Source: an uncultured Alphaproteobacteria bacterium | GTDB taxonomy: Bacteria; Pseudomonadota; Alphaproteobacteria; Rs-D84 | Direction: 5' to 3' | NCBI GenBank assembly: GCA_944389555.1 | Contig: CALXMU010000001.1 | Coordinates: 194,676-258,675, forward strand | Length of the DNA: 64,000 nucleotides | In this document: positions 3,018 to 36,716 of the stretch, one piece after another | Layout: every line of letters starts with the position of its first letter | How positions within the stretch are numbered: position 1 is the first letter of the stretch | Notes under the pieces: generated by a model | The model's database searches: none | The model's input: the letters and a program-made list of their open reading frames with translations, nothing else | What the model was told of the DNA's origin: nothing | Program-made: the position numbers and the translations under genes

Positions 3018-3756
3018 GTCAAAAAAAGTTGTTAGGGCAAAATTAAAAGCGGTTAAATCCGATTCGCGAGGAAGTCGTTTGCTGCGCATACTGCGTGCAA
3101 CTGGTTTGTTTCGTTGGGAACGTCCAAGTACTAAGTCTGAAGAAGTTGTAAATATTTTAACCCATGGTATAGGAATTGGTTTGGCAATTGCCGGTTTGAC
3201 CCTGTTGGTCGTTTTCGCTTCAATAAAAGGCGACCCTTGGGCGATTGTGTCTTGTGCCATATTTGGGTTGACAATGTTTACGCTTTATTTTGGCTCAACA
3301 ATGTGTCACGCAACGATAGGTAAAAAAAGTGAATGCTTTTTTGAGGTATGGGATAGTGCCGCTATATATGCCTTGATTGCCGGTACATACACGCCTTTCT
3401 TACTTGTAAATCTGCGCGGTTGGATTGGGTGGACTGTATTCGGTATTTTATGGGCCATCGTTATATTTGGCTCAATTATGAAAATGAAAAACCCAAAGCA
3501 GCAGCCTAAGTGGATGGTGGCTCTTTATCTTATAATGGGGTGGACTTTACTGTTCATACTGCCTGCAATGCTATACAACATCCCGCCACGTGGTTTATGG
3601 TTTATATTGGCTGGTGGACTTTCTTATTCAATTGGCGTGTTTTTCTATTTGTGGCGCAAAATGAAGTATTCACATGCGATTTGGCACTTATTCGTTATTG
3701 CTGGCAGTGTGTGCTTCTTTTTCGCGGTGTTGTTTGGTTGTATTATAGATTTCTAA
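3010..3756 (+). CDS. trhA: Hemolysin III / TrhA family membrane protein
   Basis: This 248-residue protein of the HlyIII/PAQR superfamily has about seven membrane segments. Family marks are NILTHGIGIG near residue 48, the STMCHA segment near residue 97, DSAAIYALIAGTYTPF near residue 116 and the C-terminal HAIWHLFVIAGS. These His, Ser and Asp residues form the putative metal site of PAQR proteins. A basic cytoplasmic extension of about 40 residues precedes the first family motif. Bacterial members are implicated in membrane-energy or lipid homeostasis rather than proven haemolysis. It overlaps the gltX 3' end by eight bases, indicating translational coupling. Confidence 0.92.
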   Translation: MVKSKKVVRAKLKAVKSDSRGSRLLRILRATGLFRWERPSTKSEEVVNILTHGIGIGLAIAGLTLLVVFASIKGDPWAIVSCAIFGLTMFTLYFGSTMCHATIGKKSECFFEVWDSAAIYALIAGTYTPFLLVNLRGWIGWTVFGILWAIVIFGSIMKMKNPKQQPKWMVALYLIMGWTLLFILPAMLYNIPPRGLWFILAGGLSYSIGVFFYLWRKMKYSHAIWHLFVIAGSVCFFFAVLFGCIIDF

Positions 3757-3767
3757 GAAAAACTAGT

Positions 3768-3796
3768 TTGACATTATTTGTTTTAAGTACTAATAT
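3768..3796 (+). promoter_or_regulatory. Strong sigma-70-type promoter for the thr leader/thrS
   Basis: TTGACA at 3768-3773 is separated by exactly 17 bases from TAATAT at 3791-3796. The predicted start of transcription is about 3803-3804, only three or four bases before the leader-peptide ATG at 3807, so the leader ORF would be almost leaderless. Confidence 0.8.
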
Positions 3797-3806
3797 ATTT
3801 TTCAGT

Positions 3807-3863
3807 ATGAAAAAGTTCATGATAGTTTTTACTACAACTACAACAACCCCCGCGGGGGTGTAG
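3807..3863 (+). CDS. Threonine-rich leader peptide upstream of thrS
   Basis: An 18-codon ORF encodes MKKFMIVFTTTTTTPAGV. It has six consecutive Thr codons (ACT ACA ACT ACA ACA ACC at 3831-3848) and ends 81 bases before thrS. It begins just downstream of a near-consensus promoter. The Thr run ends in a C5-GC-G5 palindrome (3847-3858) that spans the Pro, Ala and Gly codons, and a second hairpin GCGGTT/AACCGC lies at 3873-3886. This is the layout of an amino-acid attenuation leader: ribosomes stalling for lack of charged tRNA-Thr would change RNA folding and raise ThrS synthesis. No U-rich terminator is evident, so control might act on translation. The function is inferred from sequence alone. 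Confidence 0.75.
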   Translation: MKKFMIVFTTTTTTPAGV

Positions 3864-3887
3864 ATTCTATTTGCGGTTTTAACCGCG
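3846..3887 (+). promoter_or_regulatory. Candidate attenuator hairpins before thrS
   Basis: Hairpin 1 is ACCCC-CGCG-GGGGT (3846-3859), overlapping the end of the leader ORF. Hairpin 2 is GCGGTT-TT-AACCGC (3873-3886). CGCGG at 3851-3855 can alternatively pair with CCGCG at 3883-3887, and AACCC at 3845-3849 is complementary to GGGTT (3934-3938) beside the thrS ribosome site. The structures are mutually exclusive, as expected for attenuation. Confidence 0.5.
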
Positions 3888-3944
3888 CAGTGCAATAATC
3901 AATAACAATTTAACTTTACTTTATAAATTATAAGGGTTTTTAAT

Positions 3945-5678
3945 ATGTCATATCCTATTGAAATGATTCGTCACTCATTGGCGCACGTTATGGCGGCAGC
4001 CGTACAGAAACTGTATCCAGATGTAAAATTTGCGGGTGGACCTGCAATTGAAAACGGATTCTATTATGACTTTGATACAGAGCACAGGTTTTCAGAAGAG
4101 GACTTTGAAAAAATAGAACAAGAAATGCGTTCTTTGATTAAATCCAACGGTCGTTTTGAACAAAGAAATGTTTCTTTGGATGAAGCAAAGCAAATTTTCG
4201 CAAATCAACCATATAAAATGGAATGGTTAAACGAATATGATGCGGCTGGCGAACAATTGTCTATATATACTTTCCGTGATTTTGTGGATTTATGTCGTGG
4301 ACCTCACGTTGAAAGCTCTAAGGACTTGCCACGCGATTCGTTTAAAATTCGTAACGTTGCAGGGGCTTACTGGAAGGGTGACGCAAAAAATAAGATGTTG
4401 CAGCGTATTTACGTTGATGCGTTTGCTTCAAAAGAAGAACTAGAAGAATTCTTAAAAATGCAAGAAGAGGCGGCTTCTCGTGATAACCGTAAATTGGGTA
4501 AAGATATGGATTTATTCCATTTCGAGCCTGATTATGCGCCTGGCGCCGTTTTCTGGCATGATAAAGGTTATAAAATTTATCGCAAGTTGATTGAATATAT
4601 TCGTCATCGTCAAGAAAAGGCTGGTTATCAAGAAATTTCTACGCCGTCCGTTATGGATAGGTCTTTGTGGGAACGCAGCGGTCACTGGGCAAAATACGGT
4701 GAACATAACTATTCAGGAAAAACCCAAGATGGTAAAACGTTCTGCGTAAAACCGATGTCTTGCCCCGGTGGTATGTTGGTGTTCGGACAGGGTATAAAGT
4801 CTTATAAAGATTTGCCTTTGTACTTAGCTGAATTTGGTAAGGTAAATCGCTATGAGGCAGCTGGTGGTTTGTCTGGGTTAATGCGCGTTCGTGAATTTAC
4901 TCAAGATGACGCTCATATTTTCTGCACGGAAGAACAGTTAGAGAAGGAAGTCGTAAAAATTTTGCGTTTCATTAAAGATATTTACGGAAAGTTCGGTTTT
5001 GATAAAATTTCTATGAAATTAGCTACTCGTAAAGAATCAGAATTCCGTATTGGTTCTGATGAAATATGGGATAAAGCTGAAGGTGCTTTAAAGCATGCGT
5101 TGGACGCCAATGGAATTGAGTATGAAATTGCAGAAGGTGACGCAGCGTTCTATGGACCGAAAATAGATAACTATCTGAAAGATGCGCTGGGGCGTACTTG
5201 GCAATGTGGTACGGTGCAATTAGATATGAATTTGCCGGAAAGATTCGATTTATCTTACATCGGTGAAGATGGTGAAAAGCATCGTCCGATTATGTTACAT
5301 CGTGCTATGTTGGGCTCTATTGAGCGCTTTATGGGAATTTTATTGGAGTCAACAGGGGGTAACTTACCTTTATGGTTGTCACCAGAACCTGTTGTCGTAA
5401 CGCCGATTTCTGAAAAATTCCGTGATTATGCGGTCTCAATAGTTGACGCGTTGCGAGATGCAGGAATACATGCTCGCGCAGATTTACGTGATGAGAAAGT
5501 AAATTATAAAATCCGTGAATTGTCATTGGCAAAAACTCCGATAATTGCGGTTGTTGGTGAAAAAGAAATGGCCGATAAAACCGTAACATTGCGTCGTTTG
5601 GGCGTTGAAAAGCAAGAAGTTATGAATCTTGATGATTTCATATCTCAAATGAAAGAAGCGGTTAAAATGCCGGCATAA
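3945..5678 (+). CDS. thrS: Threonyl-tRNA synthetase lacking the TGS domain
   Basis: This class II synthetase charges tRNA-Thr. The 577-residue protein starts directly at the editing domain: H10 and H14 (HSLAH) with C117 and H121 (CRGPH) form the deacylation site for Ser-tRNA-Thr. The catalytic core has the usual zinc ligands in CPGGM, DDAHIF and LHRAMLGS. The C-terminal anticodon-binding domain follows from about residue 475. Compared with the roughly 640-residue family norm, the N-terminal TGS domain of about 60 residues is absent. No in-frame upstream start could supply it, because the leader peptide and hairpins occupy that DNA. AAGGG before ATG 3945 is the ribosome site. Confidence 0.95.
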   Translation: MSYPIEMIRHSLAHVMAAAVQKLYPDVKFAGGPAIENGFYYDFDTEHRFSEEDFEKIEQEMRSLIKSNGRFEQRNVSLDEAKQIFANQPYKMEWLNEYDAAGEQLSIYTFRDFVDLCRGPHVESSKDLPRDSFKIRNVAGAYWKGDAKNKMLQRIYVDAFASKEELEEFLKMQEEAASRDNRKLGKDMDLFHFEPDYAPGAVFWHDKGYKIYRKLIEYIRHRQEKAGYQEISTPSVMDRSLWERSGHWAKYGEHNYSGKTQDGKTFCVKPMSCPGGMLVFGQGIKSYKDLPLYLAEFGKVNRYEAAGGLSGLMRVREFTQDDAHIFCTEEQLEKEVVKILRFIKDIYGKFGFDKISMKLATRKESEFRIGSDEIWDKAEGALKHALDANGIEYEIAEGDAAFYGPKIDNYLKDALGRTWQCGTVQLDMNLPERFDLSYIGEDGEKHRPIMLHRAMLGSIERFMGILLESTGGNLPLWLSPEPVVVTPISEKFRDYAVSIVDALRDAGIHARADLRDEKVNYKIRELSLAKTPIIAVVGEKEMADKTVTLRRLGVEKQEVMNLDDFISQMKEAVKMPA

Positions 5679-36684: not shown

Positions 36685-36716
36685 ATAAAAATACCCCAGA
36701 CGGGGTAATTTTTATT
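36685..36716 (-). terminator. Terminator of rpsT (bidirectional)
   Basis: AAAAATACCCC-AGAC-GGGGTAATTTTTAT; the A-rich left arm gives a U-run on the minus strand after rpsT. Confidence 0.8.

Follow-up and report, generated by a model that had tools for sequence, protein, structure and literature searches.

A threonine-codon leader peptide upstream of thrS, without the usual terminator, in the alphaproteobacterial order Rs-D84

In Escherichia coli the threonyl-tRNA synthetase (ThrRS) regulates its own synthesis by means of its N-terminal region, which binds the thrS operator. In classical attenuators, such as those of trp, his, thr and pheST, a run of cognate codons precedes or overlaps region 1 of a hairpin 1:2, and the leader also holds a 2:3 antiterminator and a 3:4 terminator with a U-run. 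The closest known system to the one described here, and the one precedent for it, is thrL-thrS of Streptomyces lividans TK24, in which a leaderless Thr leader is annotated before thrS (PMC8079986). No alphaproteobacterial thrS leader was found in the open-access literature searched.

The locus analyzed here belongs to a reduced, 882-kb genome from Rs-D84, the order of Ca. Enterousia and its relatives; the closest named relatives of the host are Candidatus Enterousia and other alphaproteobacterial MAGs from guts and termites. Enterousia has been assigned to Rs-D84, and its genomes are ~1 Mb or less and lack amino-acid biosynthesis (PMC12306168). Positions refer to the window, i.e., the whole 64,000-nucleotide stretch of DNA that was analyzed. 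A short ORF with a run of Thr codons precedes thrS (Table 1) and very probably lets the cell raise ThrRS when charged tRNA-Thr runs short, without the usual terminator.

Table 1. Features of the thrS leader region, with window positions
Feature	Position	Strand	Basis
Promoter P1: TTGACA (3768-3773), 17-nt spacer, TAATAT (3791-3796)	3768..3796	+	Conserved in relatives
Leader ORF, MKKFMIVFTTTTTTPAGV and stop, predicted leaderless or nearly so	3807..3863	+	In frame in 62/62 genus-level loci
Six Thr regulatory codons, ACT ACA ACT ACA ACA ACC (codons 9-14)	3831..3848	+	Codon conservation, 62 loci
Hairpin 1, ACCCC-CGCG-GGGGT, over the ORF end	3846..3859	+	Folding energy about -8 kcal/mol; other families show compensatory changes or a different stem
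Pyrimidine-rich stretch ATTCTATTT behind hairpin 1 (possibly a weak, delayed U-tract)	3864..3872	+	T/C-rich composition
Second promoter P2: TTGCGG-N17-AATAAT, extended -10 TGC at 3891-3893	3871..3899	+	Conservation in 62 loci
Hairpin 2, TGCGGT-TTTA-ACCGCG, only in P1 transcripts	3872..3887	+	Folding of 62 loci
thrS Shine-Dalgarno, AAGGG	3932..3936	+	Read directly
thrS, threonyl-tRNA synthetase, 577 aa, without N-terminal TGS domain	3945..5678	+	NCBIfam match

The leader ORF, its threonine codons and its distribution

When short ORFs upstream of genes were scanned for runs of one amino acid, the leader was singled out. It comprises 18 codons (ATG AAA AAG TTC ATG ATA GTT TTT ACT ACA ACT ACA ACA ACC CCC GCG GGG GTG TAG) and ends 81 nt before the ATG (3945) of a gene identified as thrS (NCBIfam TIGR00418, 688 bits). 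Upstream, this reading frame stays open into the gene before it, and a mechanical listing gives a 117-aa GTG ORF there (window 3510-3863); both the position of P1 and the relatives speak for the ATG at 3807 as the sole start. Searched in every frame and on either strand, the 882-kb genome has a single stretch of the form (ACN)6, and ACCCCNNNNGGGG(T/G) occurs in that genome only at the thrS leader and at one bidirectional terminator. A bidirectional terminator-like hairpin at window 36692-36707 (TACCCC-AGAC-GGGGTA) has the stem of hairpin 1, but with a proper T-run on both sides. Neither the T-box nor any other RNA family described in Rfam matched the thrS leader, even at E up to 1.

An in-frame leader precedes thrS, at a distance of 70-215 nt, in 61 of 61 close relatives (ThrRS 75-96% identical, upstream DNA readable), and the leader peptides of these relatives end in T(3-8)-P-x-G-V. 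Over 62 loci, Thr occupies the last two codons of the run in all cases, the search pattern having demanded AC as the start of these two, the third from last in 56 and the fourth from last in 51. Synonymous Thr codons vary among the loci with the exception of the final one, which is ACC in 62/62 as against 13% of genomic Thr codons; likewise, the Gly codon of the leader is GGG in 62/62 as against 15% in the genome. The presence of a Thr leader before thrS is thus far from chance, and a putative Thr-codon sensor is strongly supported by these comparisons. The first-pass annotation had claimed a Thr-codon leader peptide for thrS, with 18 codons, six of them for Thr, and 81 bases to the gene, all of which was confirmed by direct reading with exact coordinates. 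It had proposed that related genomes be examined for a Thr run with changing synonymous codons, and this is what the 62 loci hold, none of the 61 relatives being devoid of the Thr-rich ORF.

Beyond the genus, Thr leaders before thrS occur in the order Rs-D84 (families f2, f174, f175 and f176) and elsewhere in the class (families f23, f40, f67 and f90), most members of the class being without one. The pattern ACNACNACCCCNNNNGGGGK, searched across 385 genomes of the class, gave few matches outside the genus, and only that of G080 lies before thrS. No leader was found at the ThrRS loci L067-L081 (61-62% identical), examined from the true start of the TGS domain. The leader has been lost before thrS in two family members (L169 in G011 and L173 in G003); at L169 an opposite-strand tRNA-like sequence replaces it and a single promoter is left. 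The N-terminal TGS domain is absent from the ThrRS of the window, in comparison with autoregulation of the E. coli type. With rows classed by hand and without correction for phylogeny, a leader accompanies 12 of 20 ThrRS genes without TGS and 3 of 67 with it (Fisher p = 2.4e-7); outside the order the figures, equally uncorrected for phylogeny, are 3/6 and 1/60 (p = 0.0017). This co-occurrence with TGS loss suggests that the leader may replace protein autoregulation of ThrRS.

Promoters and hairpins between the leader and thrS

The promoter that had been reported directly upstream of the leader was confirmed. P1 mostly reads TTGAC or TTGAT in relatives, with a spacer of 17, and its -10 box lies 6-10 nt before the leader ATG in 59 of the 62 genus loci and likewise in 14 of 15 leaders that lie at the edge of the genus or beyond it, so the P1 mRNA is predicted to be leaderless or nearly so. 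The initial description of the start codon as close to the 5' end is therefore supported, but not its description as unusual, since among Alphaproteobacteria the trpL RNA of Sinorhizobium meliloti starts with its ATG (PMC7298713) and Caulobacter has 375 leaderless mRNAs (PMC4117421).

In the consensus fold of the leaders, hairpin 1 is the sole structure. Its general form is ACCCC-NNNN-GGGGU, and the 5' arm begins with the invariant last Thr codon, ACC. Variants include ACCCC-GUAA-GGGG, whose loop contains the stop codon (G445), ACCC-GAAA-GGGU with loss of the Pro (G452), the stem AACCC/GGGUU (G147) and UACCGC-UUAG-GCGGUA (G097). As the stem differs between families while its place is kept, selection acts on the RNA and not on the peptide PxGV. 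The latter was rejected as a conserved arrest motif, being lost in G445 and G452 where the hairpin persists. In G124 the thrS attenuator is of the full classical type, including a U6 terminator, and hairpin 1 forms its region 1:2.

The stem of hairpin 1 has only 5 bp, and the tail score behind it (median 0.84) compares with 0.63 for coding-region hairpins and 2.34 for post-gene hairpins of the host genome; as a normal intrinsic terminator hairpin 1 is thus a weak candidate, its tail score being at coding background. Positions 6-13 after the hairpin are T/C-rich and A-poor relative to their A-rich surroundings, a bias that is real but late. Extension of the stem through UACA/UGUA is not conserved and needs GTG after GGG (37/62). 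By tail scores, no good U-run terminator was found in the thrS leaders of the genus (62 loci), and no mutually exclusive antiterminator pairing is conserved, as nothing emerges from the consensus fold once the 5' arm of hairpin 1 is masked. The lack of an obvious U-run terminator, noted in the first-pass annotation, was thereby borne out.

The same genomes carry a leader before ileS. In the host it lies outside the window (G000:C1:78403-78508, locus L126), encodes MKKAMIIIIK followed by a stop, and is succeeded by a GC hairpin with U6 directly before the gene. The form MxxxxIIIIK is conserved in 30 of 30 relatives, with ATG as start in 29 and GTG in the remaining one. This leader resembles that of thrS in being a peptide leader ahead of an aminoacyl-tRNA synthetase gene and, in the absence of an upstream tRNA, in starting close to its promoter; unlike the latter, it has a normal GC hairpin with a U5-U7 terminator (29-30 of 30) and is, judging by these elements, an ordinary Ile attenuator. 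Since the clade uses such an attenuator at ileS, thrS genuinely differs in having no terminator.

The second predicted promoter, P2, has TTGC in 62/62 loci of the genus, followed after a spacer of 16 or 17 by TATAAT or AATAAT, and the AATAAT versions carry, in compensation, an extended TGn in 12 of 12 scored cases. With -35 and -10 hexamers 16 or 17 nt apart, within the 16-18 nt expected of such promoters, and kept among relatives, P2 answers to the description of a sigma70 promoter, its scores being set against shuffles that preserved base composition only. Its position is fixed relative to hairpin 1, the -35 box starting 9-14 nt after it in 61/62 loci. In the genus P2 overlaps hairpin 2, which folds in 61/62 loci (mean z -2.6) with the compensatory stems GCGG/CCGC, GCGC/GCGC, GCAC/GTGC and GCGA/TCGC. 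Because the P2 spacer is fixed at 16/17 while hairpin 2 spans 11-21 nt, the promoter spacing is no by-product of the hairpin. As a terminator hairpin 2 was rejected, for it has no U-run and is absent in G454. P2 is also clear in G454, G456, G453 and G447; none was recognizable in G445, G449, G147, G080 and G097, though leader and hairpin 1 are present in these. P2 is thus, as predicted from these loci, an addition of some lineages, outside the core. The overlapping hairpins of the first-pass annotation correspond to hairpins 1 and 2, but P2, beneath hairpin 2, had been missed. Taken together, comparison among genomes shows the leader ORF, the Thr codons, hairpin 1 and the predicted promoters P1 and P2.

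Proposed mechanism and alternative explanations

The P1 RNA would begin at or beside the leader AUG, and a ribosome translating the leader would stall on the Thr codons when charged tRNA-Thr is scarce; we infer translation and stalling from the frame and the codons. With a ribosome whose front edge is some 12-13 nt past its A-site codon, hairpin 1 would stay free during stalling at the first Thr codon; at the second the ribosome would touch the hairpin, and from the third on it would block the 5' arm. As the last Thr codon itself forms part of this arm, a stalled ribosome is expected to prevent hairpin 1, and as a shortage of Thr-tRNA calls for more thrS while stalling disfavors the hairpin, hairpin 1 should be a negative element. 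When Thr-tRNA is plentiful the ribosome would clear the run and leave, hairpin 1 would form and, together with the pyrimidine-rich stretch, it would lead to pausing or release of the polymerase before thrS, at partial efficiency. P2, which bypasses the leader, would supply basal thrS expression. This single-hairpin Thr leader, in which stalling masks hairpin 1 and spares P1 transcripts from premature arrest while P2 provides the basal supply, has in our judgment about an even chance of being correct. In replete cells, a ribosome following the polymerase closely would mask the hairpin as well, and the model therefore needs pausing or slow leaderless initiation. The least certain part is the output, taken here to be premature P1 arrest and not an effect of Rho, of RNA decay or of interference with P2, and the short stem and the coding-like tail score of hairpin 1 count against arrest.

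The absence of an intrinsic terminator, the roughly 80 untranslated bases from the leader to thrS and the A/C-rich Thr run would also suit a Rho-dependent version as in tnaC, in which the C-rich, G-poor run loads Rho after the ribosome departs, while a stalled ribosome covers the run and P1 transcripts reach thrS; a weak suggestion of a role for Rho was made for cys leaders of Actinobacteria that have no terminator (PMC1262725). This version is nevertheless unlikely, as it leaves the invariant hairpin 1 unexplained and the stretch offers little length for a rut site, the remaining leader being C-poor.

Control of message stability is quite unlikely. Here a ribosome stalled near the 5' end would shield the leaderless P1 mRNA, as in erm leaders, and hairpin 1 would hold the ribosome on the Thr run. 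Such shielding would suit a leaderless 5' end that has the Thr codons no more than about 45 nt away, a single hairpin immediately in front of the stall codons and a leader devoid of a terminator; however, it gives no role to P2 and hairpin 2, and it is the position of the stem that is kept, not only its strength.

The fixed distance between hairpin 1 and P2 bears on promoter interference, by which a P1 polymerase paused behind hairpin 1 would occlude the P2 -35 box, and a ribosome on the Thr run would melt the hairpin and free both promoters. The -35 box, 9-14 nt past the hairpin, lies about where a hairpin-paused polymerase would stand, and release of such a polymerase by the ribosome is established for trp (PMC1183508). 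If true, a terminator-free switch would couple tRNA charging to the use of two tandem promoters; it is rendered quite improbable by the five genomes named above that have leader and hairpin 1 with no recognizable P2.

Translational control, by pairing of the C-tract of the Thr run with the thrS ribosome site, had been suggested in the first-pass annotation. A duplex of -6.7 kcal/mol can be drawn in the window, and leaderless mycobacterial poly-Cys ORFs reportedly affect translation (cited in PMC9031893). Native pairs nonetheless show no advantage over pairs exchanged among genomes (-4.19 vs. -4.26 kcal/mol), masking of the 5' arm leaves no conserved structure, and hairpin 1 would outcompete the pairing; the suggestion is unsupported and very improbable. 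That the leader is an inert relic of a classical 1:2/2:3/3:4 attenuator, its terminator having been lost, is the least credible explanation, although G124 retains all the parts with hairpin 1 as 1:2, since the Thr codons, ACC, GGG and the frame are strictly kept over five families of the order, which does not fit decay.

Relation to known systems

With thrS and ileS, two genes join those under peptide leaders in an uncultured order, and for cells described as lacking amino-acid biosynthesis (PMC12306168) tRNA charging may be among the few amino-acid signals that can be used. The thrS leader of Rs-D84 agrees with classical attenuators, and with thrS of G124, in the placement of the cognate codon run before or over region 1 of hairpin 1:2, ahead of the matching gene, with residues selected while codons change; it differs in having neither the 2:3 antiterminator nor the 3:4 terminator. 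Other systems share single features with it. The trpL RNA of S. meliloti, also alphaproteobacterial, begins at its ATG but serves Trp biosynthesis and has an ordinary terminator (PMC7298713), and the cys leaders of Actinobacteria are terminator-less (PMC1262725). The mycobacterial poly-Cys attenuators (Canestrari 2020, cited in PMC9031893) are described there as leaderless short ORFs with a codon run and no intrinsic terminator; in contrast to the thrS leader they have Cys codons, precede biosynthetic operons and are reported to act on downstream translation.

As annotated, S. lividans thrL resembles the Rs-D84 leader in being leaderless, in placing its Thr codons immediately upstream of thrS and in having a single hairpin that lacks a U-rich tract, and differs from it in having only two Thr codons (MKRVRPFLETTPGFVPAR) and in belonging to another phylum; the passage on thrL mentions neither comparative evidence nor a second promoter (PMC8079986). 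The lone-hairpin form poses the question of how a stalled ribosome acts without a U-run terminator, a puzzle that S. lividans thrL shares, and for which dozens of natural leader variants are now available to test terminator-free action.
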